Positions 16,231-59,570 of a stretch of DNA of 64,000 nucleotides are shown in pieces. Origin of the DNA: Paramacrobiotus metropolitanus. Lineage: Eukaryota; Tardigrada; Eutardigrada; Parachela; Macrobiotidae. Position numbers and translations under genes: made by a program. Each line of letters opens with the position of its first letter. Positions within the stretch are counted from its first letter, which is position 1. The notes below the pieces were generated by a model that made no database searches, was not told the DNA's origin, and saw only the letters and a list, made by a program, of their open reading frames with translations. The DNA is taken from the NCBI RefSeq assembly GCF_019649055.1, contig NW_026570333.1, positions 124,001 to 188,000 on the forward strand, in the 5' to 3' direction.

Positions 16231-16809
16231 TTAAACCTGTAGCACAGCAAAAATATCTGCGACGCTTTGCAGTCCTGGCCAAATGATCGAGGCCCCTGTT
16301 TCAACCGGTATTTACTTTATTTGGCAATAGCCGTCCAAAATTCACAACGATAATCGGTATTTAATATTCGGTAATCGATATTATGACCATATGAAATGTT
16401 GACTTCTGCTGCTTGATTGCCCTGTGTCTTTTTCACAAGACACAGGGCAAAAGTTGATTTGCCTGGTCTGAATACCCACTGACCCAGTATGCAAGTACTA
16501 GTATCTGGCTTTTCAGTTTTAGTGGCTCGGTGGAAGGACAGTCCACATTATTATGTTTCACTAAGGGTACTCAAACATCCTTTACGAATGGCTCTATAAC
16601 TTAGAGGCCAGATCCTTTAACTTTTGGCTCCGCCTCTGCACTACCATTGGACGAAAGGCTCTATAATTTTCCTCTCTTTAACTTAAAGTCCTTTAACTTA
16701 AAGTACCAAAATCGTTACTTTTCGGTATAGGGCCAGCTGAGGTGGAAATCGCTAGTGCAAACTGAAACGGATCCTGCATCTACAGTGGATCTACAACGGA
16801 TCCTGCATC

Positions 16810-18419
16810 TTAACTCTTCCTGGTAGTCACCGTCCAATTTCAATGCTGAATCCGATTTCTAAAATTTTCGAGCGTTGTCTGTCGGAAATAATACGAGATC
16901 ATTTACAAAAAAATTGTGCATTAGGTGATCATCAGTTTGCTTATCGTCGCAACAGGTCTACTGAACTGGAAATTTTTTATTTTGTGAAAACAGTGTCTGA
17001 TTTTATTGATAACGGAATTGAAGTTGCCGCCATTTTTCTTGATTGTTCTAAAGCCTTTGACAAATGTGATCACCAAAGTCTTATTACCTCACTTATAAAT
17101 CTGAATATTTCCAGCACGGTGGTCCATTTAATCTTTGATTATTTGAAGAATCGAAAGCAGTGCGTTTCTGTTGGCGAATATTTTTCGATAATTTTGAAAG
17201 TAACAAGTGGTATGCCACAAGGGTCCAATTTAGGGCCGCTGTTGTTTATTTGCCTTTTAAACGAAGTGCCCTTTATACTAATTAATGGCAGTATTGTCCT
17301 GATTTTCGCCGATGACATCGTTTTGCTACGCCCGTTAACTGCTATTGACAGCTGTGAACTTCTTCAGGTTGATCTTAATTGTTTGTCCAAATGGGCATCA
17401 TCTAAAGGCCTTGTGTTTAACGCTGATAAATCAGTTTACGTGCATTTTTCAAAAAAGCGGTCTCTAAGTTACAAAACTGACTTTTTTCTTAATGATACGT
17501 TTTGCGAGAAAGTAAAGCATTTGGGCGTCGAAATCGACCGTGAGCTATCGTTTAAATTTCATGCTGATAGTCTTGCTATGAAGTGCAAAAAAAGAATTTG
17601 GTACATTAACTCCTTGTTTCGTTTCCGCGACTCTGGAGCGCGCATGATGCTATTCAAATCGCTTGTTTTTCCCCTTTTGGATTATTGTGGGCCGGCTGTT
17701 TTTTCATTGCAAAAAAGTGCAAAGATAAAGTAGAGCATTGCATTGAGAAATTTGTTGCATCCATTCGTCTTGGTAACGATACTTCCGACTCGTCTCCGTT
17801 TGAAAGAACTTAAATTGGACGGTTACAGAATAAGAACAGCGAAAAAACTTTTGATTTTGTTTATAAATTGGTATTTGGTCTAATTCCTTTAGGCGACAAA
17901 TTTCTTTCAAAACAAACTGTGTCTGCCGCCTTGTCTGAATCTGTTTCAGGAAACACCTGTCTCCGTCGCCTTGAACGCCATTATCTCCCTCTGTCCAGCA
18001 CCTACGACTGTATGTGGCATAACCGCTATTCCTGTTGCCGGCTCCTTCAGTGAAAAACTTACTTCTTTATGGAACGAAGTATCCCTCCCCTCTGCCTCAT
18101 ACAAGTCTGTCGGAACTTTTCGCAACTCTTTAGAAAATATTAAATGGGAAGATCTAAATTGGTCCAAAAGTTCTTACACTTGTGAACTGCTTTATTTGCA
18201 ATATACAACTCTACCATGTTTTAGCTTTTGTTTTTATTATTATTGTTCTTTTAAGCTGTATCTTTTTCCTTCTGTCATGTTCAGTTCTCACTTCGCTTGT
18301 TACTGTTGTTGTTAATCCATCATGCATTCCATGTGTGTAACTTGTTGTTTGTCCACTGCTGTTAAGGGGTATGACCCCGTTGCACGAAGACATTAAATTC
18401 ATCATTATTATTATTATTT
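16810..18419 (+). mobile_element. 5'-truncated CR1/jockey-like LINE
   Basis: Sequence from the RT fingers (RPISML at about 16831) to an ATT-repeat 3' tail at 18403-18419. The endonuclease and N-terminal RT are missing, as expected from incomplete reverse transcription. Downstream of the main frame the sequence continues in other frames (SFSEKLTSLWNEVSLPSASY, the usual LINE C-terminus), so the copy is dead. Confidence 0.8.
16843..17733 (+). pseudogene. LINE reverse transcriptase, partial and frameshifted
   Basis: The frame of 296 codons keeps RT motif A (IFLDCSKAFD), B (GMPQGSNLGPLLF), C (FADD, the catalytic Asp pair) and the thumb-proximal HLGVEID and PLLDYCGPA motifs. It starts inside the domain (first Met at 16843, frame open before it) and stops at 17731-17733. 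Homology goes on in shifted frames as far as about 18215, so at least two frameshifts separate it from an intact C-terminus. This FADD-type RT is of the APE-endonuclease LINE kind and is unrelated in detail to the FLDD RT at the window start. Confidence 0.85.
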
Positions 18420-24978: not shown

Positions 24979-26004
24979 ATGTCTCTAGCCAATAACACCA
25001 CGGTCATCCTCAACCCCGACCCGGATGTGGCACCGCTCTGGGAAATGTGCTTCATCTCCATCATCACCAGCGTGGCGATCCTGGCGAATTTCACGCTAAT
25101 CTGCGCGTTCATTTTCGACCGGCGCGCCCGCACCCCGTTCAACTACTACCTGATCAACCTGGCCGTGTCGGATTTCCTCGTCGGCGCCATGGGCATGACG
25201 AACTACGGGATCTACACGTACTACAGCTACTGGCCTTTAGGCTACAGCCGTTGCACCGTGTGGCTGTACTTCGACTTCCTCAGCACCAGTTTAACACTGC
25301 AGACCTTAGCGATAATCTCCGTGGACCGATTATGGGCTGTGACCTTTCCGGTATCCTACCGGCGCCATCACACCCCGCGGAAGGCGTGGCTAGCCATCGG
25401 CTTCACGTGGACGCTCAGCCACGTGTTAATCGTCCCGTCGCTGACGTACTACCGTTTATATATCGGGATTAATGAAAATCCCCGGGATTGCTACTGGGAT
25501 CCGTTTATTGCGCCGCGTTACGCCAGTCCGTTTTACGTCATCGCCACGGTGTTCTGGACGCCGATGATCCTGACGATTGTATCGTATATTGTGACCACCT
25601 GGCAGATTCGTCGAAAGCGTTTATTCCGGGCCCGGATTCAGGAGGGGGTCGTCCCGAATACGAAGGAGATTCTGCGCCGGCAGAAGGACCGGCAGATCTA
25701 TTTTTTATTGAGTTTGCTGTTGTGTGCGTTGGTGGTGATGTGGACGCCGTATTTCTGCTATGAGGCGCTGTCGATGAGTACCGGGTACTATGATTTTGAT
25801 TTCTTTACGATTACGTACTGGATGGCGTACTGCTTGTCGGCGGTGAATCCGTTTCTGTTTAACTGGGGGAGTCCGGAGATGAAGGGGGCGTTGCGGCGGT
25901 TGGTGCGGTGTTGTGGACGCCGGCTGCATCTTAGTACCGTGGCGCCGTCGATTGAATTGCGGACCGGGGAGATGGTGTCGCGGACCGCGTCGACGAAGCG
26001 CTAG
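24979..26004 (+). CDS. rhodopsin-like GPCR, amine/muscarinic style
   Basis: Single exon, 341 residues from ATG at 24979. Seven hydrophobic segments at about 26-46, 60-80, 95-118, 138-158, 186-206, 245-265 and 275-297. Motifs: LAVSDFLVG in TM2 (the conserved Asp); a Cys before TM3 and one in the second extracellular loop for the usual disulfide; DRLWAV in place of DRY (Asp-Arg kept); MWTPYF for CWxPF in TM6; NPFLF for NPxxY in TM7. Two N-terminal Asn glycosylation sites (NNT, NFT). The third loop is moderately long and basic (RRKRLFRARI). A C-tail of about 40 residues has CC for possible palmitoylation. It is nearest in style to biogenic-amine receptors, but the ligand is unknown; the TM3 ligand Asp is not clear. 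Confidence 0.85.
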   Translation: MSLANNTTVILNPDPDVAPLWEMCFISIITSVAILANFTLICAFIFDRRARTPFNYYLINLAVSDFLVGAMGMTNYGIYTYYSYWPLGYSRCTVWLYFDFLSTSLTLQTLAIISVDRLWAVTFPVSYRRHHTPRKAWLAIGFTWTLSHVLIVPSLTYYRLYIGINENPRDCYWDPFIAPRYASPFYVIATVFWTPMILTIVSYIVTTWQIRRKRLFRARIQEGVVPNTKEILRRQKDRQIYFLLSLLLCALVVMWTPYFCYEALSMSTGYYDFDFFTITYWMAYCLSAVNPFLFNWGSPEMKGALRRLVRCCGRRLHLSTVAPSIELRTGEMVSRTASTKR

Positions 26005-28467: not shown

Positions 28468-31400
28468 TTAGTCGAGCGTTACCAGCCAGAATGTCTCCAT
28501 CTGCTCTTTGCCTTTCATGGATATCATGCCGCGGCTCTGCAGGCGCACGGCGGATTGGTCCAGCAGGGCGGCTGTGGAGCGGCTCACGTGGATCCGATTC
28601 GGCATCCCGTACAGACAGACGCGCGACGCTGTATTGACCGTATCGCCAAATCTGCAAGACGTACGGTTAAACGGTTAGACGAAAAGTGTAACTATTAATA
28701 AAGCCGACCTTGATCCGCTGACATTAAAATGGCGATAAATTGAGACTTACAAACAGTATCGTAGCCGGCGAAATCCCACAACGCCGGCCGCACAGGAACC
28801 TGCCGACGAAACAAGCGTATAACCAGTACACATTACACTTTACCATTTAAGGAATGCCAGCAAATCCGTTCACATGCACTACGGCATTTGATTCTAAAAC
28901 GTGTTTTAACTGTCTTATTTTGTTCTATGTTATGCTACAAAATAAAATTATTTATGTGTCTGACACAGGCCAGGCTGTCATTCGATCTTTTTAAAATTTT
29001 GCTGTAGAAAATGCATAAGTACGAAGTTACGTATATCAACTGAACCAAAAGCAGACTCATAGTACAGTAGTTTCCATAAGAACATTGGATCAAATCGGAA
29101 ATCCATCTCTAAAACCTGAAATTCACGATAATACTAGGTTTTGCCAACCTGAATGAACGCCGCACTGCAGTGCGACATGATGAGCAAAATTCCGCCTGAC
29201 GGTCTGCAACATCCGCGTGGACAGTTCCACGATGACGAAGGCATGCCGGTCACCATTACGCACCGGCAGACCACTCACCACCTGTTGCACAACCATTTTT
29301 TATCACAAAATCAAAACCTGTTCAACAGAAGTAACGCATCATGTACCAAGTACGAATCGTCCACGGCCTCCACTTTATACACATCATCCAGGTAGGACGC
29401 CGTGATGCGGTCCAGGACAGCTTCCGATTCGCCCACACTGCTGATCAGCTCGTCCGGTGTGCGGTGCTGCGCTAGTAGCGAGAGGCCACATAACTGGGCG
29501 AATAATATCGTCACGTTGTCGAATAGTTCTGGTGTGACACTCTCGCCGGAGCGAATCCGATTGGCTATCCAGCTAAAGAGGAGGCAGTGCCGATTGCATA
29601 AAGACACTTGCAAAAATCTCTTCGAGTCAGCGAAAAACAAGCAAACAAAGGTTTTCTTTTAAGCAAATCTTTAGTTCGAATGTGGCATAACAGTGTTCAC
29701 GCTATTGCATCAGTCGTGGAATATGGACTTACAGATCCACAAAGCCACTGCACTACAATACTCAACATTTAATAGAGTACGGTGTCGACAAAGTGTTGAT
29801 CTAGTAAACTTTTTAATAGCAACTTTATTATGAATTTATGGTTGCAAGATGACCACGCAGGACAGTAAACATACCGCGGCAAAAATTGCGCGATAATTCT
29901 ATCGCAGCGTTCCATTTCCTCGGCTAGGTATTTCGTCCGGACGGCCACTTCGTTCTCCAGTTCCCTGGCATAGTCGGCCAACCGCTGCTGAATGCGATCC
30001 ACCAACTTAACCCCGCTCTTCCGTATGGAAAACACTGGGGAGATGTCCGCTAACGCTGAGCGTACAGTTTTCGCTGTGGTATTATAGGCTAGACACGATC
30101 GGATCAAAGTTTCGTAGGCTTGTAGCGGTACACTTCCCGTAAACTGTATTTCACTGGTACTTTCTGTAATCAGCACAAAATGTTCTTGCTATGAGAACTG
30201 GCATGACTAAAGCCTAACGTTTTCGTAGGGTTTTAATCTGTTAAATGTAACCTAATTAAATTATTTTCAATGTTTTATGGATCCTATAATTATTTTATTT
30301 TAACATTTTTGTATTTTGACTGTACCATTTATTTATTTTTTAAATATATGTTTATTTATTAATTGTTCCTCATTAATAGTTTTAGCTGCAGGGATAACTA
30401 ATGTCACATAATACCAATCGTTGACCTTTCTGGGAAATCTCCTGTCTGCTGAGGATTTCATATAAGATAATCCCGGTGGCGTGTATATCGTGCTTCTGGA
30501 CGATCTTGGCGGTGGGATGCTCGATGGTGTCGGCGCGATGGCGGACGTACACGACATCCGGTGACTGCCGCACCGCATTCTGCAGGCGGACATTGACCAG
30601 CCCGCCGATCTTCAGCGTGAAGAAATTGTCTAGATGGCAGGCATAACCGGACAGATCACCATGATATTCCAACGACGAGGCATGGATAAACTGCAGACCC
30701 TGTAATTGGCAAGCCAGCCAACACGTTTGATCTTTTCCTTTCCGGAGTTAATTACACTGACATCGCCTTCGTAAAAGAAATTACCTCGAGGAAATCCAGG
30801 ATTAGTGACGCGGTGAGGGAAAAATCCCAGTTGATCGGCGAATGGAAGAGATTATACAGGCAGCCGCGCTCCAGGGCTTCCGAGACAACGCTGAGAGCGG
30901 ATTTCTTATCCGCCGGCAGGACGGTTAAGCCGATGGTGCGGACTATATTCTCGTGGCTGATGTAACGTAGCTACACATTTTACAATTTTTATGCAATTTT
31001 TTAGAAATAGCATATATGTAATTGTTCTACTCAAAATATTTATTGAACAAATTTCTAAAATTTTCCATAAAATCTTATAATTTTTAAAGAAGATGTATTT
31101 TGAAGAAAGAAGAATTTAGAATTTCTTCATAACTATTTCATAAGTTTCGTATAATTTTATTTTTTTTAGTTTTTATCTGCGTTTTTAAAGCATCTTTTCA
31201 TATGATTTATTTATGTTTTTATCGCACAAGCGCTGCGCAATGATGGTGTACCTTATTTAAATAGGGCATAAAGAAGCGGTTCGATCCAATTTCCGCCAAG
31301 TGTAGTTCATGATCGGCTACGGCAACAATCTCCACAATAACCGACGTGTCGTGGTATTTTGCTGCCAACTGATTGGTACTCTACATTATACACAGTTCTG

Positions 31401-34400
31401 TGAATTTCCAGAATAGATTGCGTCGCCGGTGTCTGAATTATAGTACCATGTACTGTCTCTTGGAGAACCCACTAACAGCACTTTTCGCCACTACACTATT
31501 GGTGGCCGTTGTTGTGGACCGAGACATGGACGGTTCCAGTGTGATCGCTGATTCGTCCAGCATCCACCAGGTGTTTTCTTGTCTTTGCACGTTACGCTTG
31601 ATTATCCTGTACAAAAAGCTTGATTATCCTTTTTATTCTGTTAGGCAAAAGCGTAAAATACTCTTGCACCTTATGTATACAACGATACCGGTGACGATCG
31701 CGAACACTGCGGCCATTGTGGAACCGACAACGGTACCGATGTACGCTTTGTCACCTGCAACGACGCAGTGATTTCCAGGCAATGAGAAAGTAGAATTACT
31801 TTCGGTCATACAGTACCTCGGCGACAGGCCAGTTTTTCGTTACGGTAGCCGCAGAACGGTTCGTTGGGCGGGGGCCAGGTGCGGTTGGACCAGGATGTTA
31901 GATTCTGCAGCTGCGTCAGACGGGAGCGATTCGCCGGTTTGTAGAGGAAGTTCTGAAGAATTATCAAAAATCGGTTACATACTGTACTAAAAACGGTTTT
32001 CTCAGAGAACCTGTTAAAGCCGTTTTTTTTGCGGCTGAGATGTCGCACGATAAAAACCGGTTTATCTGCACTGTGAACATGATAAAAACGGTTTCAACAG
32101 CTTTCACTGAGAAAACCGTTTTCGTGTGCCTCTTTTGTCGCACGATAAAAATCCATCACATAATAAAAATGATTTCTGCAGCTTTCATTAAGAAACCTTT
32201 TTTTCGCGCGACATGTATCGCACTGATTCTGACACGCTTGCGCTTTTTATGAACACTTAACTAGTTGCTTGCGCTCAAAATGCTAGTTGGGCCAAATATT
32301 TTCATAAATTGTGCCTTTACGCTTTGCAGAATAATTTACGAGTTCTAGTTACCACTTGACTGCCAGCTGCGTCAAAGCGAAAAAAATATGAATCGAGTTG
32401 ACGTTCGCCATAGTTATCGATGTACACCGTCCCCAAGGGACTCTCGAAGGCCCGATCGTACATGCGTTGTGCCAGAGCGGAACCAGAAACGAGATCTGTA
32501 CCATTGGTTGCCAACCAGTCTGAAAGAATCTGGCAAAAAGATGAATGGTGAAAGTAATTATACACCAATTAGGCGTCCTTTGTACGCTGAATATATACCT
32601 CGGCTACAGCAGACACCGCACCATACGGGCTCGCCAAACTTTGGTAAGGCTGAAATACATATATCCGAGATAGTAGGCGGAATGTGTATCACATTCATTA
32701 CTAGGAATTTCCGACCTGCTGTAGAATGTCGTATGAGAAGTTGAAATCACGTCGTGTTCGCTCCAAAATATCCATACCCAGTTGCGTGTTGGGAGGGTAG
32801 AAATAGTCGCCCGTGCGGAACACCAGTAACGACTGGAAGGCCTGTTGTGCAGCCTGAAATGGTATTATTGGTGTCGCTGCTCCCATTAAGAATTCTGGAT
32901 GATATTGGGTGTAAACGTGCCGTGTTTTACCGTATCGTCATCGTCGGCATACTTCCAGTGCATTTTCCCGTAGACAATCTCGTTCTTCATCGGCTCGATA
33001 CCGAAATATACCTGCACTCATGTTTAATACAAATATAATACTGCAATCAGAGCATAAACTAAAATATATTTTACCAGTTACATTGATTTAATTTTTTTAC
33101 TGCAGAGTATCATAAAAGCCACTCTAGAAAAATAGCTTAGCTTACGTATTCTCCGTTGGTCATATCCATCGTGTATGCAGCCACCTAATTAATTAAACGT
33201 TTATTCTTAACAAAGTGCGTTTTAACGCATAAAACCTTTTACCATAAACTTCCTTAGATATCGCGCATGTCCGAAATACATGATCACTAAAATAAAAACC
33301 CAGTTGACAGCTACTACTAGTAATACTGTAGAACGGTCGTTTTTTTGACAAATCCTGTACTTCGTGTGGCGTTGCGCAAGCCAGCCAATAAACCGCTGAA
33401 ATCATATCCCGGTTCGGATGCGTTGATCTTCCACTTTAGCGGCTCCACCCCGGAACGCTGCGTCGCATCCTGGGCGATACGGTCCGCCACCGACCGGTAG
33501 AAATCCGTCGAGCTGAGGTCCACGACCATGGCGAACGTCGTCCAGTTGAAGGTGTCCAGGGTGTGGAGGAAGAACTGCGAGATGGCGGGAAAGTTTAGAC
33601 GTCCCATAGATATCCAATGGGGATTGCGTGTTCGGTTGCGGATAGCCGGAGTGGCCGCTATGCTGTCCATAATTACGATTGGCACAGGTTAGTTACGACT
33701 GGCGAGCGACGCCAAAAGGCGGGTGTGGTATGGTACTTACAGGGAAATGTACAGGAAATCCCACTGTTCGATTAAATAACTCAGATCGGATAAAATTATC
33801 CCATCTGTAATTGGATTACGCACCAGGTTAAAGGGCATAGTATTATAGCGTCTGCAGATGGAGATTCATCGAATGACATGTTTATATAGTTAAATATGGG
33901 CCTAAATGGCAACGCAGTGATTATTTATTTCCCGCTAACAGTTAAGTCGGTTACCCAAGCAGTATGATTAGAACAGCTTGCATACGAGTATTAACCCTAC
34001 AGATACTCAATACAGCACCGACTGCCAAGTTACAGAAATTCCAAATCACTGAATAATGTAACCATAAGGCATGGTAATGAGTTTACAGTGTTCAGTGCGA
34101 GAAGTTTTCCAAGCAGAATTTTCTCCCGAAAGCTTGTTTCTGTGTTATTAGAAGCCGCATATCAAACGAAACAGGTGACCCCTGACACCGCATAATCTGG
34201 ACGAAAAGTTAAGCGCCACGTTTATTTAATTAGCCAACACAGTACTTGTATGGTTACGTCAACACTTCTACTGATAATACAATTATTTTTATTCGTCGAC
34301 TCTAGTCCAATAGATCCTATCAATAAGCGCGTAGTTGACTAGTAAGAATCCTCATCCGTCTACAGCCAGTATTACAGAGGTTCTTATTCGCAGATTAATA

Positions 34401-34760
34401 AAAATTCAGTCGACATGGAAACTACGTACTGGGTATCAATAGGACGCTGAGAATCTGCGGCGTCCGTTGACGGTAGTACCACTCCGCAACCTGGCGCCCC
34501 GTGTACTCATTCATGGCATTGGGCACATAATCGTCATACACATAGGTCAACGTGCCGTTGACCCTCCCAGAATAGCGACTATTCATCTCATCCACGGCTA
34601 CACTAGCCGCCGGACCCAGGTAGGCCAACTGGGCATAGTTCGTCGGCAGCCGACTACCGAACGCCACAAACTCCACATTAATAGCAGCGGCGACAGCAGT
34701 CAAGCAAGCGACGCTAACCAGTAAAACAGCGCGCCAAGTCATCACAGTTTGTCGATCCAT
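28468..34760 (-). CDS. receptor guanylyl cyclase (19 exons), degenerate metal site
   Basis: Exons run 34760-34426, 33851-33741, 33662-33361, 33286-33243, 33184-33146, 33011-32931, 32853-32716, 32529-32353, 31952-31817, 31754-31670, 31606-31447, 31368-31252, 30970-30785, 30699-30426, 30163-29875, 29572-29347, 29281-29149, 28799-28751 and 28651-28468. All phases close, giving 1021 residues. Signal peptide about 1-26; ANF-receptor ectodomain to about 450 (AYTMDMTNGEY, GTVYIDNYGER, WPPPNEPFCGY); one TM about 461-481; kinase-homology domain about 545-790 (HENIV, HGDLS without a catalytic HRD Asp, IGGL for DFG); coiled coil about 780-825; cyclase about 826-1021 with VVSGLPVRNGDRHA and RYCLFGDTVNTASR. 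Glu893 and the Cys of RYCLFGD fit GTP use. Asp of the SDIVGF motif is Gln851; Asp897 is kept. Activity is therefore doubtful. Confidence 0.9.
31990..32122. repeat. inverted repeats within a cyclase intron
   Basis: aaaacggttttctcag (31990-32005) is repeated inverted at 32107-32122. The phrase gtcgcacgataaaaa also occurs twice (32042 and 32147). All lie in the intron between exons 8 and 9 of the receptor cyclase gene. Confidence 0.65.
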
Positions 34761-37619: not shown

Positions 37620-38516
37620 TTACTCCCGTAGAACCATAATAAACAGTGTCGGATCCAGGAGCCCCTGCGCCGCCCACGTCATATCCAAGACCAAATCAAT
37701 CACCGCGTACACCGCCGCATCTATCCCCACCCAATCCTGCATAATCCACCAGATCAGCTCCGGGATCCAGGAGAACAGCAGACTCCCGGTCAGCACCATC
37801 AGCACCCGGAAGGTCTTTCCGTCCGTCACCGACTGCCGCGCCACCTTCGTACTATCCCGTCGTAAAAAGCGTTTGGCCTGTTTCCGCTTCCACGCAATCC
37901 ACGGATACAGCGCCACGATGCTGACAATGGGCACCACGAAGAGGACCGCGAAGACCGCGGTCTCCCAGATCTGCACGGGGATGCTTTGCGCCGGGGAATA
38001 GTCCGTCATATCTATTAAACACGTGTCGTGCTCGTTGAGGCGGTAGATGCGGTAGATGAACAACGGTCCCGCACACACGTGGACAAACAGCCACGTGACC
38101 GCACACGAGCCAACAGCTAATCGCAGCGAATGCTGGAGACGGTGGTAGCTGAAGGGATGGACCACCGCCCAGACGCGGTTGAGGGTGATGAGTAAATGCG
38201 CGTTGGTGAGAATGGCAAATAGCATCCAGTTCACGTAGGAATAGACGATACACGGCGTAAAGGTCAAATGCCCGGGGAACATTTTGTCGAAAAAATCAAA
38301 AGGGATGTCCAGGAGATTAACCAGGATGTTGGAGAGGAAGACATGTGCGAGGTACACGCTGAATAAGACGGAATAGCGCGCCCGTGTACGGTAGAGAACG
38401 CGAAGAGCCATGACGTTCAAGACGATGGTTAACAGCAGCAGTATCCCAAACACGATTCCCACGACGGTTTGTGCGTACGGTGGGAATGACGGCTGTAATC
38501 GCGTGGTGTTGTTCAT
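37620..38516 (-). CDS. NRxWAV-type rhodopsin-like GPCR with no C-tail
   Basis: Single exon, 298 residues from the ATG at 38516 (MNNTT, an N-glycosylation site); upstream frame is open but has no better Met. Seven hydrophobic segments. Motifs: NLLDIPFDF at the TM2 position, LNRVWAVVHPFSY in place of DRY and following residues, WIPELIW in TM6, LLDPTLF for NPxxY in TM7. The chain ends seven or eight residues after that motif, so helix 8 and the cytoplasmic tail are absent. It shares DMTDYSP, PVQIWET, RTFR-type loop motifs and the TM7 ending with the four paralogues at 45-59 kb, but is much more divergent, and lies on the other strand. Ligand unknown. Confidence 0.8.
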   Translation of the reverse strand: MNNTTRLQPSFPPYAQTVVGIVFGILLLLTIVLNVMALRVLYRTRARYSVLFSVYLAHVFLSNILVNLLDIPFDFFDKMFPGHLTFTPCIVYSYVNWMLFAILTNAHLLITLNRVWAVVHPFSYHRLQHSLRLAVGSCAVTWLFVHVCAGPLFIYRIYRLNEHDTCLIDMTDYSPAQSIPVQIWETAVFAVLFVVPIVSIVALYPWIAWKRKQAKRFLRRDSTKVARQSVTDGKTFRVLMVLTGSLLFSWIPELIWWIMQDWVGIDAAVYAVIDLVLDMTWAAQGLLDPTLFIMVLRE

Positions 38517-41500
38517 GATCTCGATAATGAGAATACCAATAGCAGCATAACATCTTGGGCACGGACCAAGGATTCCACTTGCATAATTAAAACAGAGCAC
38601 TGCAATGGCTGGTACTCGGTGCTGTTTATCATCTTGAGAATGATATAATTACTTATACAACAACTGGAAATTCCATAACAGCATTATTTCTAAATTTGCC
38701 AACAAGAGGATTTAGTTTAAGCAGGAAGATGCCAAATCAGATGGCAGAAGGAGGAATCAGGCAGTTGAGAACGTGATGAAGTCATGAAGTTACTGCTAGT
38801 GATGGAATTTTTATATTCAGCTATCCGTTCCAAGTAGCATTAGCCAAATAGGCATGATAATAAAATCCGTCTTCAGTAGAGCGTAATAATTACACCGCTT
38901 CTTTCACCTCAAGCACTCATCGAAACGGCACACGACACGCAGCATTCCTAATGATCTCCCTGCTGGTGGTGACTTTTTTAGTGGAATGTTTGCAGCTAAT
39001 CCATATCTGGTTGGGATATCCGTTGGCGCTTGTATCCGTGTATGGCGTAGAGGTGAAAACTGCACTCTAATCGGCTGGAAGGTGAACATCCTCGGATTGA
39101 CGAGCTACAGCCAACAACACGCACCTGACGGCGCTAATTAACCACCGTCGGGAGTCAAGTCAACCTGGTATACTGTGGTGTCCTGTTGTCAGCCGGTACC
39201 GTATGGGATGAGAAACGATCGCACGGTGTTTCCAACCGTCGACAACTTCCTGGAATTTGACAAGATAATTGCCACCATTATCTAGTCCATAACTCACCCT
39301 ACAGCGCAGTCCCGGTTATCTACCGACTACCGCTAACGCCGATCTGTTGTCCGTGGTAAACAATCTCCATGGTAAATGCGTAATGGCGTACATCCATTGT
39401 ACACATAATACCGTATGCCTACGTAGAAAACTGGCTTCTGATTATTAGGAAAATACGCGCGAAGATTCTAAAATGCGAAAAATTACTTGTACTGATACAG
39501 CTCAAAATTACCATTTTTCAACAATCTGCTTTGCGCATTGGAGCCAGTAAATCAAGTTTTTATTCTTTATTGTAAACACCTGATGTCATTATTTACTGTA
39601 GGTTACCCTACAGACGTTCATACTGCGGTGTGGCTCGAAACGAACAATTTTAGCGCCGCTAAGAAAAAAAAATAAATATTTTTAGGTAAACTTACCTGCT
39701 GCTGCCTGTGGCATAGTGCACCGTGGTATACAAAGCAGCTCGAGTCAGATTTCCCAGATTTTGCTGTTATAGTCTTAGCCTGTTCGTGAAACGGGTGTGT
39801 GTTATAACTTTATAAGTACATTTTGTCAGCGTTACAAGCGCATAACCACAGTATACCGGCTTCGGGTTTCCCGGTTTGTACATCGATATTAAAGCGGAAG
39901 TAATGCCTGTCTAATCCATTTAGCATGATGTGGTTATTTGGTCTGACAAGATTACCATGAGCGTAGCACTGAATGCAGGAAGTGGCCGTGCTCGTTCTCA
40001 GTTTGGTTTATCCCTTCTTACGAGCAAAAGGAGCTTAACCGCGCGTCGTTCTTAAACTGGGCGTGTAGTACAGTGTTTTCTCGCTCCCGCTACATAATCG
40101 CAGTTGTAGGTGCACTGACCTTATGTGTCTCTCTAATCTACACAGCCAGACGGCTCATGATCAGTAGTCAACAGCAGGTTGGTCGGATTTACTTGATGCA
40201 GTGGAAAAAGGTAACATTAAACCGGCCGGATGGTTCACATTCGGTACGTTTTTAATATAGGCAATTGCCATCAAAACAACAAAAAGATTCCCACTCTTTT
40301 CTCAACCCTTCACAACCATTACCTTTCACTCCGCGTACTACCTTTCATTTCGTTCGCAATCTCCACAGCTGTTTGCTTTAAAATTATCCTGATCCAACGT
40401 TTGTAAATGTTTCGTGAAATGATGCTGCTATTTGCAGTAAAATACAGCGCAAATGGCCATTTATGTTGTCGCAGCAGTCCGCCATCAGTTCATGGTGATA
40501 GAATCCAGGAATTTCGGTGTGTTTACGTAATCCTTTTGGATTTTGTAAAATAATGGTGTTGGAAATAAATCGCAAAGTTTTATCCCACTTTGCTCATATA
40601 AAAGCGTGAAAAGACAAAAAAAAACCGAAACGTGGCGAGCGGTGTGATTGGCACGCTGGGCAGTGTCCGCGAAACGTAGTGCACGAAGGCCACATTTTTC
40701 ACTCGCATCATCCGTTATCGGGGTAACAAAATTCCAAAATGTTTTAATGCATTCAGGTGTATCAAAAGTCTCATTTTAAACCGATCTTCTTCAAATTTGG
40801 CACGTAAATGCACATAACCATGAAGATCGTTCTTACACCGATCCAAACTTCAACGATATTTTTCGAATTTTAAAATAAATGTTTATGTTTTTGAAATTCA
40901 TTTTAAAATTTGGATAACATGCCTGCACACCATGGATCTTAAAATACTGTCTCCTTTTACTTAGCAACGTTTTCTGCCGTCTAAGCTATGCTATACAAGA
41001 GTATCAGTGAACAAAAACTCATAACATCATCCCCGTTCGGCTGTATTAAAGGCAAAGTACATATCTTTCTCGACAGTTCTTTAAAGAATTCCTTCGTCAA
41101 TGGTCCCCATGTAACCGTCGTTTCGAACGCCAGCGGTAAAGCTGTGTAACGGATGAGCTACGTAACGGTCTAATGATGTACTTCCTTTATACACCAATGT
41201 AACACCATTATAGGGACAGAGACACGCCCCAAATGCAGACCAATCCAGGTGCCACGATTCCGTGCCAACTGGCCACGCACCCCGTTATACCGAGATGGCG
41301 AGATATTTACAAACAATTGTAGCAAATCAATGCCGGAGGGCACAATACACCGCATCAACAACAAAGTTAGCAGCCGCACTTTCCAACGGCTACAATGTCG
41401 CCGTAGGCCAAGAAATGCCGCAGAGTTCTGCTCTGTTTCGCCGCGAAGGAAACAGCGAATAGTATGTCATTTGTACGATATTACAGCTGGTGTGTAGCAC

Positions 41501-44360: not shown

Positions 44361-44892
44361 TATTCTAGAATATACTTACAGTTACTGTATCTATGCCGGA
44401 AGGAAGCATGCTGACTTTAAAGGTACACCAAGGGGATTTCCGCGGGCAGCTGCGTACATTATGGTGATTAGTTAGGCAAGGGAAAGCACTGCCGTTTATG
44501 CGCAGTATCCTGTATTTCAGATAGAGATTCTCAAACGCTGTAGCCATCTTGTTCTTGGTGTACGGGGAATAGTTGTGGGATTATTGTTTCTCGGTGACGC
44601 ATTATGTGGCGCACAAAGTGAATTTTGCATGAATGACCGATTTAATTTATTCTGCGACCGCGGACTCAAAGGTACACGACGGATTCGCTGCCGATTCCCG
44701 CTAATTTATATGATGCGAGTGTATTATTTTTGATTAATGACCTTAATACTTATTGCACCATGAGTTTTCCCAGAAGTGCACGTTTTATGCAGGCGTATAG
44801 GTAAAGGCACTTGTTGAAATGAAAAAAGAGTTTGTCTTCGCCCGTTCGTCCGGGAATACAAAATTTACTGGATGAACAGATTTTACGCAGCG

Positions 44893-45813
44893 ATGAACAA
44901 CTCTACATTGACGGAACTGGAATTCAACAGAACCGAGGCTGCGCACGATCCCGTCAACGGACGCGCCATGCTCACTGTCTATATCATCATTCTCACCTTA
45001 ACCGTGGTAACCAACGCCACAGCCCTCATTATCCTGTACCGCACGAAAAGCAGCGGCTATTCTGCTGCTTTCGGGATCTATCTCATCCATCTCTTCACCA
45101 TGAACATCCTGTCAAATCTTCTGGACATTCCGCTGGATATTGCGGAGAAAGTGTATAGCGTCCGCTTCACGGCGGCCCACTGCGCCCTGTACACCTACGT
45201 CAATTGGGCGCTGATGGCCGTTTTGGTGTACTCGCATCTGGCCATCACTCTCAACCGCCTGTGGGCGGTGCTGCATCCGCACAGCTACCGACAGCGCCAC
45301 ACCCTGCAGCTGGCCGTTGGAATTTGCTGCCTGATCTGGATCGTCGTGCATCTGTGCGCCGTACCGTTATTCGCGTATCGACTAACCCACCAATCAGAGA
45401 ACGACGTGTGTCTGCTGGATATGACGGATTATTCGTCGGATCTCAGCGTCCCCGTGCAAATCTGGGAGACGGTGATTTTTTGTCCTCCTGTTTTTGCTGC
45501 CGACACTGGCGATTGTGCTGCTGTATCCGCTGATTGAAGGGATACGCCAACGCGCCCGGCGTCGTGTGTGGCAATTGTTAACGGATCGCTGTATGGGCGG
45601 AAGAAGGTGGTGGCAGATCCGCGGACGTTCCGCATGCTGCTGGCGCTGACGGTGAGCTTGTTGTGCGCATGGATGCCGCAGTTGATCTGGTCGATATTGG
45701 AGGACTGGATCATCCTGGATTTCGTCACGATGGCCACCGTGGATTTGGTGCTGGATTGTACGTGGACGGCACAGGCTTTGCTGGATCCCATTATGTTCAT
45801 TGCCGTGTTTTAA
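44893..45813 (+). pseudogene. GPCR cluster copy 1, two frame lesions
   Basis: Aligned with the three intact copies the Met is at 44893 (MNNSTLTEL). The frame reads normally through TM1-TM5 (NLLDIPLDI, LNRLWAVLHPHSYRQRH, DMTDYSSDL). At 45476-45481 there are six T where the others have five. The shifted frame hits TGA at 45535-45537. A further GT inserted in gtcgtgtgtgg near 45565 restores the original frame, which then runs cleanly through TM6-TM7 to LLDPIMFIAVF and TAA. The two insertions add three bases, but the stop lies between them. Either a young pseudogene, or assembly error at simple runs. Confidence 0.75.
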
Positions 45814-47580: not shown

Positions 47581-47942
47581 GTGATAACGTGTCCCAGGAA
47601 CACATTTATTTCATTACTTTTCTTCGCCAGCAGCAATTTAGCACTGTCGCATCAACGGGAAACCGGATTCAACGGCGTCCATTATGCCGATTAGGTATGC
47701 GCTTGACAGCATCCCAGTTACTCAGTTTGCTGCATCTCTGGTTGGCACAATCCATCCATTTAACCAGTGCGGTTCCTTTTCGTGGAGCACTTAATAGCCA
47801 ATCTCTAACACAGGATTAAATTATTCGTGCACTACCTGCATAATCCCTTGCAAACTGAAATTCTGCTTCCAATTGGAAAATAGTGTCCTCGATCGGTGTT
47901 ATTAGAAGCCTTCTGGACTTCGAAGGAAACATTTCCTTAGGA

Positions 47943-48851
47943 ATGGACAACGCTACCATGACGGCATTCAACCGTACAGCTGCCCATACCTCATTCAGTG
48001 GCCAGACCATACTCGCTGTGTATATCGCCATTCTCACCTTAATCATCGCCAGCAACGCCACAGCGCTCGTTATCCTCCACCGCACGAAAAGTAACGGCTA
48101 TTCCGCTGCTTTCTCTTTCTACCTCGTCCATCTCTTCACCATGAACATCCTGACGAATTTGCTGGACATTCCGCTGGATATTGCGGAGAAAGTGTATAGC
48201 GCCCGTTTAACCACGGTTGTGTGCGTCCTGTACAGCTACGTCAACTGGGTGTTGGTATCTGTTTTAGTGTACTCGCATCTGGCCATCACGCTCAACCGCC
48301 TGTGGGCGGTGCTGCATCCGCACAGCTACCGACAGCGCCACACTCTGCGGCTGGCCGTTGGAATTTGCTGTCTGATCTGGATCGTCGTGCATCTGTGCGT
48401 CGTACCGTTATTCGCATACCGACTTACCCACCAATCAGAGAACGATGTGTGTCTTCTGGATATGACAAATTATTCGCCGGGTTTCAGCCTACGCGTGCAA
48501 ACCTGGGAAACGTCGATTTTTGTCCTCCTGTTTTTGCTGCCGACGCTGGCGATTGTGCTGCTGTACCCGCTGATTGAAGGGCTACGCCAACGCGCCCGCC
48601 GTCGTGTGGCGATTAATAACGAGTCGCTGTATGGACGGAAAAAGATGGTGGCGGACCCGCGAACGTTCCGTATGCTGCTGGCGCTGACGGTGAGCCTTCT
48701 GTGTGCATGGTTGCCGCAATTAATTTGGTTGTTGCTAAAGGGCTGGGTGGCGCTGGATCGTGCTACGAAGGACATGGTAGATTTGGTGCTGGATTTTACT
48801 TGGACAGTGCAGGCTTTGCTGGACCCGGTTATGTTCATTGCTGCGTTTTAG
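47943..48851 (+). CDS. NRxWAV-type GPCR, cluster copy 2
   Basis: Single exon, 302 residues from ATG 47943; an open extension back to 47883 begins with GTG and is not favoured. N-glycosylation sites at the start (NAT, NRT). TM1 ends SNATALVIL; NLLDIPLDI marks TM2; LNRLWAVLHPHSYRQRH follows TM3 (Asn in place of the DRY Asp, Arg kept); WLPQLIW in TM6; LLDPVMFIAAF ends TM7 and the protein. It differs from the other copies most in TM3 (VVCVLYSYVNWVLVS), the loop DMTNYSPGFSLRVQTWET, and TM6-7 (KGWVALDRATKDM). The frame is intact. The ligand is unknown. Confidence 0.85.
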   Translation: MDNATMTAFNRTAAHTSFSGQTILAVYIAILTLIIASNATALVILHRTKSNGYSAAFSFYLVHLFTMNILTNLLDIPLDIAEKVYSARLTTVVCVLYSYVNWVLVSVLVYSHLAITLNRLWAVLHPHSYRQRHTLRLAVGICCLIWIVVHLCVVPLFAYRLTHQSENDVCLLDMTNYSPGFSLRVQTWETSIFVLLFLLPTLAIVLLYPLIEGLRQRARRRVAINNESLYGRKKMVADPRTFRMLLALTVSLLCAWLPQLIWLLLKGWVALDRATKDMVDLVLDFTWTVQALLDPVMFIAAF

Positions 48852-52060: not shown

Positions 52061-52495
52061 TCACAGGAATGTGCTCATTAGTCATTAGTATTACTTAGCT
52101 GCGCCGGAAGGAAACACGGTGACTTTATTGACGTATCCCGGAAAAACTGGATGCAGCCCGCGCTTCATTATTCCGATTAGTGGTGCAGGGGAAAGCACGG
52201 CCAGTTTACGCAGTATGCCGCATCACTGACAGAGTCGGAGCGCAGCTAATCGCATTCTTGCACATTGCCAACTGTGCTTGCTGCCGTATGGGTGATATTC
52301 GTGGGGTAATGCTTCTTGAATCGTAATTCCACTGCCGACGCTCTGGGACGCTTTTCGGAGTAAATGACTGGAAAAAAACGGTTTTATCTTGTGACTACAA
52401 TAGACGACGGATTCGCTGCTGATTTCCATTGATTTTGTCATAAATTCTGATGATATTCTAGACAGAAATTTCAAGACAGACAGTCTTACGCAGCA

Positions 52496-53410
52496 ATGAC
52501 TAACGCTACAATGTCGGAACCGGAATTCAACCGTACCGGTGATGAAAACGGTCCCGTCAACGGACGCGTCATGTTCATTGCCTATCTCATCATTCTCATC
52601 TTAATCGTGATATCCAATGCCACGGCCTTGATCATTCTGTATCGCTCAAAGAACGGCTACTCCCCCGCTTTCAGTATTTACCTCTTCCATCTCTTCACCA
52701 TGAACATCCTGACAAATTTGCTGGACATTCCGCTGGATATTGCCGACAAAGCGTACAGCGGCAGTTTAACCGCCGCCCAATGCGCCTTCTACACCTACGT
52801 CAACTGGGCGCTGATGGCCGTTTTGGTGTACTCGCATCTGGCCATAACTCTCAACCGCCTGTGGGCGGTGCTGCATCCGCACAGCTACCGACAGCGCCAC
52901 ACTCTGCGGCTGGCCGTTGGAATTTGCTGTCTGATCTGGATCGTCGTGCATCTGTGCGTCGTACCGTTATTCGCGTACCGACTTACCCACCAATCAGAGA
53001 ATGACGTCTGCCTGCTGGATATGACGGATTATTCAGCGGATTTCAGCGTACCCGTGCAAATCTGGGAGACGGTGATTTTTGTCCTCTTGTTTTTGCTGCC
53101 GACGCTGGCGATTGTCTTGTCTTGTCCGCTGATTGAAGGGTTACGCCAGCGCGCCCGCGGCCGCGTGGCGACCATTAACGGATCGCTGTATGGGCGGAAA
53201 AAGATCGTGGTTGATCCGAGAACCTTCCGGGTGCTGCTGGCGCTGACGGTGAGCTTGTTGTGCGCATGGATGCCGCAGTTGATCTGGTCGATGTTGGAGG
53301 ACTGGATTATCCTGGATTCCGTCACGATGGCCACCGTGGATTTGGTGCTGGATTACACGTGGACGGCGCAGGCCTTGCTGGATCCCATTATGTTTATTGC
53401 TGTGTTTTAA
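52496..53410 (+). CDS. NRxWAV-type GPCR, cluster copy 3
   Basis: Single exon, 304 residues, intact. N-terminal NAT and NRT glycosylation sites; TM1 SNATALIILYR; TM2 NLLDIPLDI; Cys before TM3 in AAQCAFYTYVNW, with a partner Cys in NDVCLLDMTDYS for the conserved disulfide; LNRLWAVLHPHSYRQRH; a third loop with RQRARGRV and DPRTFR; TM6 CAWMPQLIW; TM7 LLDPIMFIAVF then stop. It is closest to copy 1 over the whole length and upstream, so 1 and 3 are the youngest pair. Helix 8 and the C-tail are missing. Coupling and ligand cannot be read. Confidence 0.87.
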   Translation: MTNATMSEPEFNRTGDENGPVNGRVMFIAYLIILILIVISNATALIILYRSKNGYSPAFSIYLFHLFTMNILTNLLDIPLDIADKAYSGSLTAAQCAFYTYVNWALMAVLVYSHLAITLNRLWAVLHPHSYRQRHTLRLAVGICCLIWIVVHLCVVPLFAYRLTHQSENDVCLLDMTDYSADFSVPVQIWETVIFVLLFLLPTLAIVLSCPLIEGLRQRARGRVATINGSLYGRKKIVVDPRTFRVLLALTVSLLCAWMPQLIWSMLEDWIILDSVTMATVDLVLDYTWTAQALLDPIMFIAVF

Positions 53411-58120: not shown

Positions 58121-58661
58121 AATCCCGGGATAATGTTGCGAAGGAATATGTACATGTTTATAACTTTTCTCTGCCGGAAGGAAGTACTTTGTTTTTAGCG
58201 GCACATCAGGAGGAAACTGGATTCGGTCGGGTCCATTATTCCGATTAGGTGTGCTCCTCTAAGCATTTTTATGTCAGCCAGCTCAGTGCCTCTGTGGTCG
58301 ACACGATAGAACGAGTGTCCGCTCGTCGCGCAACCCTCTATACTCGCCTATGTGAAATGCGCATTAGACCGTTATACGTTGTTGGTTTATATCCGTTTAC
58401 TTTTTTTAATTAACAATTTTAATTTTTTTTTTAACACAATATTCTCTGCCCGTAAACTATTGTCATTCGAAGTGCGAGCACGACATTCAGTGAGGCGCAT
58501 GTGACGAGTAACCGGCTGTCAGGGTGCAGAATCCAGATTGAAAGGACCGATTTTATCTCATTTATTTCCAGGTAAACCGCAGGCTGTCGTAAATTAAAAA
58601 AGACAGTCTACGCACGACATAGCGGGAGATAGCTGGGCTTTAACCAAACTTTTGCACAGCA

Positions 58662-59570
58662 ATGAATAACACTACCACGACGAATTTCAACCGCATAACT
58701 GATCATACCTCATTCAACGACCGAACCATCCTGGCTGTGTATGTTGTCATACTCACATTAATCATCGCCATCAACACCGCGGCGCTGGTTATCCTGTACC
58801 GCACGAAAAGAAACGGCTATTCCGCTGCCTTCAGTTTCTACCTCGTCCATCTGTTCATCATGAACATCCTGACGAATTTGCTGGACATTCCGCTGGATAT
58901 TGCGGAGAAAGCGTACAGCGCCTGCTTGACCGCCACCCAATGCGCCTTCTACACCTACGTCAATTGGGCGCTGATGGCCGTTTTGGTGTACTCGCATCTG
59001 GCCATCACTCTCAACCGCCTGTGGGCGGTGCTGCATCCGCACAGCTACCGACAGCGCCACACTCTGCGGCTGGCCGTTGGAATTTGCTGCTTGATCTGGA
59101 TCGTCGTGCATCTGTGCGTCGTACCGTTATTCGCGTATCGACTAACCCACCAATCAGAGAACGACGTGTGTCTGCTGGATATGACGGATTATTCGTCGGA
59201 TCTCAGCGTCCCCGTGCAAATCTGGGGGACTGTCGTTTTTGTCGTGCTGTTTTTGCTGCTGACGCTGGCGATTGTGCTGCTGTACCCGTTGATTGAGGGG
59301 ATACGCCAACGTGCCCGCCGTCGTGTGGCAATCACCAGCGGGTCGTCGCTGTATGGCCGCAAGATGGTGGCGGATCCGCGGACCTTTCGGATGCTGCTGG
59401 CGTTGACGGTGAGTCTGTTGTGTGCATGGATGCCGCAGTTGATCTGGTTGTTGCTGGAAGACTGGATCACGCTGGATCCCGTCACCCAGGACTTGGTGGA
59501 TTTGGTGCTGGATTATACATGGACGGTGCAGGCTTTACTGGATCCCATTATGTTTATTGCTGTGTTTTAA
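58662..59570 (+). CDS. NRxWAV-type GPCR, cluster copy 4
   Basis: Single exon, 302 residues, intact, ATG 58662 (MNNTTTTNFNR). TM1 has AINTAALVILYRTK instead of SNATAL; TM2 NLLDIPLDI; ATQCAFYTYVNW before LNRLWAVLHPHSYRQRH; DMTDYSSDLSVPVQIWGT; third loop RQRARRRV, SGSSLYGRK, DPRTFR; TM6 CAWMPQLIW; TM7 LLDPIMFIAVF then stop. Its N-terminal half is nearest copy 2 (HTSFNDRTILAVY) while its second extracellular loop is nearest copy 1 (MTDYSSDLSVPVQIW), a mosaic that suggests gene conversion. No cytoplasmic tail. Confidence 0.87.
   Translation: MNNTTTTNFNRITDHTSFNDRTILAVYVVILTLIIAINTAALVILYRTKRNGYSAAFSFYLVHLFIMNILTNLLDIPLDIAEKAYSACLTATQCAFYTYVNWALMAVLVYSHLAITLNRLWAVLHPHSYRQRHTLRLAVGICCLIWIVVHLCVVPLFAYRLTHQSENDVCLLDMTDYSSDLSVPVQIWGTVVFVVLFLLLTLAIVLLYPLIEGIRQRARRRVAITSGSSLYGRKMVADPRTFRMLLALTVSLLCAWMPQLIWLLLEDWITLDPVTQDLVDLVLDYTWTVQALLDPIMFIAVF

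Follow-up and report, generated by a model that had tools for sequence, protein, structure and literature searches.

A tardigrade receptor guanylyl cyclase gene that probably encodes a beta-like half-site subunit, and complementary losses of active-site residues among its paralogues

Class III cyclases assemble a catalytic site from two faces of the dimer. The two metal-binding aspartates (Asp1 and Asp2) and an arginine (the A-face Arg) will be referred to here as face A, and the residues Glu, Cys, Asn, Arg, and Lys as face B, both names being coined in this work. For human soluble guanylyl cyclase (sGC), the excerpt of the structure paper assigns to the alpha subunit the residues Asp486 and Asp530 (metals) and Arg574, and to the beta subunit Glu473 and Cys541 (guanine), Asn548 (ribose), and Arg552 and Lys593 (triphosphate), and it relates the inactivity of sGC homodimers to the sharing out of key residues between the subunits (PMC3591389). 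In human sGC alpha1 face A is whole (Asp, Asp, Arg), whereas in its face B Asn is replaced by Thr and Arg by Lys. The membrane adenylyl cyclases also form one site from two domains, C1 and C2, to which the alpha-like and beta-like conditions, respectively, are comparable (excerpt of PMC3591389); their two halves are part of one polypeptide (excerpt of PMC1435932), whereas in the case considered here they would be encoded by separate genes. Of the receptor cyclases, those of mammals are described as homodimers, and ODR-1 and DAF-11 of Caenorhabditis elegans as obligate heterodimers in which each protein gives catalytic residues to one site (excerpts of PMC5225109). Several C. elegans receptor cyclases are without GTP-binding or Mg-coordinating residues and have been proposed to be obligate heterodimers, although formal proof in native cells is awaited according to the same source (excerpt of PMC8045692). 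With regard to tardigrades, an EST set was found to be without homologues of the nematode-specific cyclases (excerpt of PMC1435932), and the eclosion-hormone receptor, which is a guanylyl cyclase, is listed as present (excerpt of PMC6660194). No account of a receptor-cyclase expansion or of a half-site split in tardigrades was found in the open-access literature, which is weak evidence of absence. The half-site principle has a precedent in ODR-1/DAF-11, a likeness that we take at the level of subunits sharing one site and not residue by residue; the scale and the two-way split described below are, as far as we have searched, new.

The window analyzed in this work is a stretch of 64,000 nucleotides from Paramacrobiotus metropolitanus, and it contains a gene for a receptor guanylyl cyclase in which every exon join is of the GT/AG type and in phase, with no internal stops. 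The exon joins of the cyclase region were reproduced by a scripted spliced alignment to human ANPR1. An earlier sequence-only reading of this DNA had also reported in-phase joins without a stop, but it counted 19 exons and 1021 residues, where our model has one more exon and a longer protein. The gene and its parts are as follows.

28468 to 34760, minus strand: receptor guanylyl cyclase gene, 20 exons, 1042 residues (gene model, Pfam)
31817 to 34760, minus strand: exons 1-10, signal peptide (hydrophobic stretch 11-29) and extracellular ligand-binding region (gene model, PF01094)
31670 to 31754, minus strand: exon 11, most of the transmembrane helix (hydrophobic stretch 484-502; gene model)
30426 to 31380, minus strand: exons 13-15, most of the kinase-homology domain (PF07714 at residues 588-751)
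29875 to 30163, minus strand: exon 16, end of the kinase-homology domain and VDRIQQRLADYARELENEVAVRTKYLAEEMERCDRIIAQFLP, which we take to be the dimerisation linker (gene model)
29347 to 29572, minus strand: exon 17, N-terminal part of the cyclase domain, with Asp1 lost and Glu and Asp2 kept (spliced alignment)
29149 to 29281, minus strand: exon 18, cyclase domain (gene model, spliced alignment)
28751 to 28799, minus strand: exon 19, contains Cys981 (gene model)
28468 to 28651, minus strand: exon 20, Asn988, Arg992, Lys1028, and the stop codon (gene model)

The Pfam matches in the encoded protein follow the order ANF_receptor (PF01094, residues 136-411), kinase-homology (PF07714), and Guanylate_cyc (residues 860-1039), the last of these scoring 144.5 bits against a cut-off of 21.9. 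The second of the two hydrophobic stretches is located between the ANF_receptor and kinase-homology matches, and the protein thus shows the architecture of a receptor guanylyl cyclase with a single transmembrane helix. The best matches of its cyclase domain among solved structures are human ANPR1 and guanylyl cyclase C (E values of 2.8e-41 and 7.2e-41, respectively), whose cyclase domains, unlike that of the window gene, carry both faces whole. The sGC proteins, in contrast to this protein with its signal peptide, ANF_receptor domain, and transmembrane helix, are cytosolic and carry a haem NO-binding domain (excerpts of PMC1435932 and PMC5225109), which was not found in the window-gene protein in a Pfam search with E values up to 0.001. 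Membership in the soluble cyclases is rejected on the basis of this domain make-up, and the window gene, although it may work like beta1, is not a member of the sGC beta group.

The columns of the catalytic site were placed by aligning human sequences to the window gene. The exon at 29572-29347 (minus strand) reads ...NVTILFAQLCGLSLLAQ..., and its column for Gln872 is occupied by Asp in human ANPR1 (FSDIVGF). The residues of the site, all read from the alignment to human cyclases, are:

29494 to 29496, minus strand: Gln872 codon (CAG), replacing the metal-binding Asp1 (Asp486 of sGC alpha1)
29368 to 29370, minus strand: Glu914, guanine-specifying, kept (Glu473 of sGC beta1)
29356 to 29358, minus strand: Asp918, the second metal-binding Asp (Asp2), kept, as it is in sGC beta1
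29165 to 29167, minus strand: Gln960 codon, replacing the A-face Arg (Arg574 of sGC alpha1; the Arg of LRIGIH)
28753 to 28755, minus strand: Cys981, guanine-binding, kept
28633 to 28635, minus strand: Asn988, kept
28621 to 28623, minus strand: Arg992, kept
28513 to 28515, minus strand: Lys1028, kept

Face A of the window gene is thus made up of Gln872, Asp918, and Gln960, and face B (Glu914, Cys981, Asn988, Arg992, and Lys1028) is whole. The complete catalytic set that each subunit of a homodimeric receptor cyclase carries is lacking, as both Asp1 and the A-face Arg are replaced by Gln. The pattern found is that of a beta-type site: the window gene reads QDQ on face A and ECNRK on face B, against GDT and ECNRK in human sGC beta1, which has likewise lost Asp1 (to Gly) and the A-face Arg (to Thr) and kept Asp2 and face B. 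An extra acidic residue precedes Asp2 in the window gene (VDDSY). The sequence-only reading had proposed the change of Asp1 to Gln, and the alignment to ANPR1 confirms the CAG at 29496-29494 (its Gln851 is our Gln872); the residues that it listed as kept, viz. Asp2, Glu, Cys, and the Asn and Arg of NTASR, are all present. However, it described one lost residue in one gene, whereas the A-face Arg of the same half-site, which it missed, is also gone, and the gene is one member of a clade that shares the loss, within a very large family. A single-base error at Gln872 is rejected, because at least two bases must change to convert an Asp codon into CAG and because Gln is common to the clade.

The family was sampled from the P. 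metropolitanus assembly (533 contigs, 169,799,020 bases). Searches with three queries gave at least 200, 164, and 189 exon matches, these numbers being lower bounds because each search scored 150 candidates, and the receptor cyclase family is larger than the set of loci read here. We fetched 200 cyclase stretches and spliced each of them with our own profile aligner. Three were dropped before any counts were made (L065, which is adenylyl-cyclase-like; L108, which did not give a cyclase model; and L181, which is the same gene as L076), and 198 loci including the window gene were kept, of which 180 can be read at all four of Asp1, Asp2, Asn, and Arg and are referred to as fully readable, the other 18 being unreadable in at least one of these positions. 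The sample is not random: loci L001-L140 came from the match lists of the first two queries, L141-L160 were added since their Asp1 exon was absent from those lists and are rich in changes of Asp to Glu, and L161-L200 were taken mainly from an alpha-like query; therefore, the fractions of loss given below provide no estimate for the whole genome. Two matches that are apparent copies, one on C116 (of the C153 locus) and one on C474 (of the C65 locus), were left out. Some of the near-identical loci in the sample may be alleles or recent copies, and the 180 fully readable loci reduce to 138 when clusters are represented by one row each at below 80% identity. The domain models of 195 of the 198 loci contained no stop (those of L078, L174, and L195 did), although a stop-free domain model is no proof of an intact gene, since the aligner may place an intron over a stop.

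Asp1 was found to be changed in 60 of the 196 loci readable at this position, to 12 different residues, and the idea that the loss is confined to a single gene is rejected on this count. The replacements were Glu (14 loci), Gln (12), Ser (10), Ala (8), Gly (5), Tyr and His (3 each), and Lys, Leu, Thr, Cys, and Arg (once each). The 12 loci with Gln include the nearest relatives of the window gene. Asp2 was changed in 17 of 196 readable loci and kept in the other 179. The loci with Glu at Asp1 (L143-L151, L154, L155, L159, L190, and, separately, L017) mostly read MFTEIGGF or LFTEIGGF, and most of them cluster together in the tree described below; the replacement by Glu is conservative and might leave metal binding in place, and it represents a case distinct from the Gln clade.

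The 180 fully readable loci consist of 66 that have lost a metal-binding Asp (Asp-lost), 16 that have lost the Asn and/or Arg of face B (alpha-like), none that have lost both, and 98 that have lost neither. This is the complementary form of catalytic loss expected of obligate heterodimers of the ODR-1/DAF-11 type. For comparison, 27 receptor cyclases are given for C. elegans (excerpt of PMC5225109), whereas the loci read here include at least 66 of the Asp-lost and at least 16 of the alpha-like kind. The Asp-lost loci keep face B, with Asn, Arg, and Glu present in 66 of 66, Cys in 65 of 66, and Lys in all 63 that could be read. Conversely, Asp1, Asp2, and the A-face Arg are present in all 16 alpha-like loci, as are the Glu and Cys of face B. 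Hence, Asp2 stays in most Asp-lost loci and Glu and Cys stay in the alpha-like loci, as in human beta1 and alpha1, respectively. The Asn column of the 16 alpha-like loci contains Thr (5), Gln (3), Val, Leu, and Ser (2 each), Ala (1), and Asn (1), and their face-B Arg column contains Lys (13), Arg (2), and Gln (1). The combination of Asn to Thr and Arg to Lys that characterizes human sGC alpha1 is present in five of them (L092, L166, L167, L168, and L171). Three of these, L166, L167, and L168 (on C79 and C163, with the motif TVTIANKM), are nearly identical and represent either recent copies or uncollapsed alleles. The gene of L076, an alpha-like locus, gave matches to ANF_receptor, kinase-homology, and Guanylate_cyc when read as L181; the rough exon model contains internal stops, which we have taken as splicing errors of the model, and on this basis at least one of the alpha-like genes has the appearance of a full receptor.

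Two residues that were not used in defining the classes lean the same way as the split. Of the 66 Asp-lost loci, 37 have a changed A-face Arg, as do 22 of the 98 complete loci (Lys in every case) and none of the 16 alpha-like loci; as this Arg is still present in 29 of 66 Asp-lost loci, its loss is not strictly tied to that of Asp. For the B-face Lys, changes are seen in 3 of the 11 alpha-like loci that could be read there, compared to 0 of 63 Asp-lost and 0 of 84 complete loci. Among the 41 columns with a conservation of 90% or more in the complete genes, the largest drops in the Asp-lost set were at Asp1 (from 1.00 to 0.14) and Asp2 (from 1.00 to 0.77), with no drop at Asn, Arg, or Lys, and in the alpha-like set at Asn, Arg, and their neighbours in the same two loops; the drops at Asp1, Asp2, Asn, and Arg themselves arise by construction, as these residues define the classes. 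The 66 Asp-lost loci have a median pairwise identity of 42%, and only 14 of their 196 columns are invariant, among them those for the Glu, Asn, Arg, and Lys of face B.

No locus in the sample breaks the mutual exclusion of the two kinds of loss, although in formal terms its support is no more than moderate. Fisher's test over the 180 loci gave p = 0.0006 with kinship ignored. One of the 16 alpha-like loci, L102, is assigned to this class solely by a change of Asn to Ser and is uncertain, being on a long branch; when it is dropped and changes of Asp to Glu are not counted, the numbers become 52 and 15 of 179, with none in both (p = 0.006). With one row per cluster, the value was 0.006 for 138 rows (below 80% identity), 0.12 for 77 rows (below 60%), and 0.18 for 35 rows (below 50%). 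In a tree-aware test with seven supported pairs, which are too few for significance, loss of the A-face Arg accompanied Asp loss in a mean of 1.7 pairs and ran against it in 0.0, and the alpha-like loss accompanied Asp loss in 0.0 pairs and ran against it in 0.3. The constraint on face B in the Asp-lost loci is a stronger argument than the exclusion test, because Glu, Asn, Arg, and Lys are invariant in these loci, while Asn, Arg, and Lys vary in the alpha-like ones.

A quick maximum-likelihood tree was constructed with the eight site columns removed, in which long branches make the deep joins unsure. The window gene was placed in it among the receptor cyclases and not with sGC, whose branches are long, and it grouped with L001, L002, L003, and L142, all of which have Gln at Asp1 (support of 95-97). 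Three groups of alpha-like loci had support of 97-99, one comprised of L047, L054, L076, L075, and L081, another of L092, L171, and L182 together with two unreadable rows, and the third of L166, L167, L168, and L170. On this tree the Asp-lost state requires 16 changes and the alpha-like state six (sGC rows not counted), and the well-supported branches alone force eight and two changes, respectively (sGC rows counted). The branch of the window gene is 0.56-0.60 changes per column in length, against a median of 0.18. Selection was examined in pairs of loci of the same class with more than 60% identity, leaving out L060, L195, and pairs with fewer than 100 shared columns. In every pair compared (67 in the Asp-lost class, 361 in the complete class, and 28 in the alpha-like class), the nonsynonymous proportion was lower than the synonymous. 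For pairs with finite dS and dN above 0.01, the median dN/dS was 0.145 in the Asp-lost (34 pairs, highest value 0.224) and 0.091 in the complete class (141 pairs); the alpha-like median was 0.178 (six pairs), with dS saturated in most pairs of this class. Saturation of dS in the comparisons of the window gene with L001, L002, and L003 confines the measurement of selection to its Asp-lost relatives, among which L001 and L003, from its own clade, gave a dN of 0.114 and a dS of 0.947. These results show that purifying selection acts on the related Asp-lost genes.

Based upon these observations, the window gene is likely, with a probability of roughly 0.7, to encode a beta-like half-site subunit of a heterodimeric receptor guanylyl cyclase. 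With face A partly lost (Asp1 and Arg changed to Gln, Asp2 kept) and face B whole, its homodimer should be inactive, but together with a partner whose face A is whole the receptor should make cGMP. An alpha-like paralogue, whose face B is lost, or a complete one would fill this role; both Asps, Asn, and Arg are kept in 98 of the 180 loci, which may also work as homodimers, so that an alpha-like partner is not a requirement. From sequence, we infer the pairing, one-site catalysis, ligand sensing, expression, and cGMP output of this receptor. The presence of many such receptors beside a smaller mirror-image set suggests mixed pairs rather than broken genes.

The sequence-only reading had left the choice between a partner subunit and a decoy. 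A decoy or dominant-negative receptor would bind ligand, or pair with active cyclases, in such a way that the pair yields no cGMP, and the loss of Asp1 and the A-face Arg, with the expected inactivity of the homodimer, is compatible with this, as is the presence of an extracellular domain and a linker. However, face B need not be intact in a decoy, but every one of the 66 Asp-lost loci keeps the Asn and Arg, while 12 different replacements of Asp1 occur in the family. The Asn and Arg columns vary in the alpha-like loci and so are not fixed by the fold alone, and with a face-A partner the window subunit would complete a site and not block one. Since a dead decoy has no clear reason to keep the opposite half-site alone, this part of the earlier proposal is disfavoured and we consider it unlikely, whereas the partner alternative gains from the retained Asn and Arg and from the mirror-image loss in all 16 alpha-like loci.

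That the window receptor is instead an active homodimer with an altered metal site, in which Asp2, water, or a nearby acid such as Asp917 holds the metal, is in our view quite improbable. Asp2 is kept in this gene and in the large majority of the readable loci, the acidic residue in front of it (VDDSY) might be of use, and 14 of the 60 changes of Asp1 are to Glu, a possible metal ligand; but Gln, Ala, Gly, Tyr, Lys, Leu, and Arg are poor metal ligands at this column, and the A-face Arg of the window gene is also lost. Further, the human sGC catalytic domains are inactive as alpha or as beta homodimers (excerpt of PMC3591389), and the beta1 pattern is the same as that seen here. The least probable of the explanations, and a very improbable one, is relaxed selection, by which the window gene would be drifting toward a pseudogene in a fast-duplicating family. 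Its long branch and the many duplicates in the family would fit with such drift, but the gene has 20 open exons with GT/AG splice sites, the domain models are stop-free in 195 of 198 loci (with the aligner able to route an intron round a stop), all 67 Asp-lost pairs have a lower nonsynonymous than synonymous proportion of differences, and the 14 columns that are invariant in the Asp-lost set include those for the face-B Glu, Asn, Arg, and Lys. Pseudogene status is rejected for the window gene on its open frame and on the purifying selection seen in its Asp-lost relatives.

To our knowledge, little is known of the chemosensory receptors of tardigrades. By analogy with insect olfaction, the split may reflect a receptor-cyclase sense in which a few shared alpha-like co-receptors serve dozens of diverging beta-like tuning receptors and cGMP is made by mixed pairs alone, the two-part site having arisen several times within the receptor cyclases in repetition of the soluble cyclase; we put this forward tentatively, as a proposal with somewhat less than even chances. 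If it is true, one tardigrade genome would encode a large repertoire of two-part receptor enzymes with combinatorial pairing, constituting a candidate sensory system for these animals, and the active site itself would limit which receptor cyclases can pair. The family would then also provide a repeated natural test of homodimeric enzymes turning into obligate heterodimers, in which the residues of the two faces predict the class of the partner.

The window contains a number of other open frames. A reverse transcriptase frame is present at 16756-17733 (plus strand; RVT_1, Pfam E value of 1e-27) and is probably part of a mobile element. Frames for G protein-coupled receptors (GPCRs) of the rhodopsin family flank the cyclase gene at 37620-38648 (minus strand) and 24985-26004 (plus strand). 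Four further frames of this family, which look similar as judged by eye, are found on the plus strand at 44818-45537, 47859-48851, 52454-53410, and 58644-59570, the one at 44818 being shorter than the other three, and the three of these four that were checked gave a 7tm_1 match in Pfam. This row of GPCR frames in one orientation is a probable local tandem expansion.
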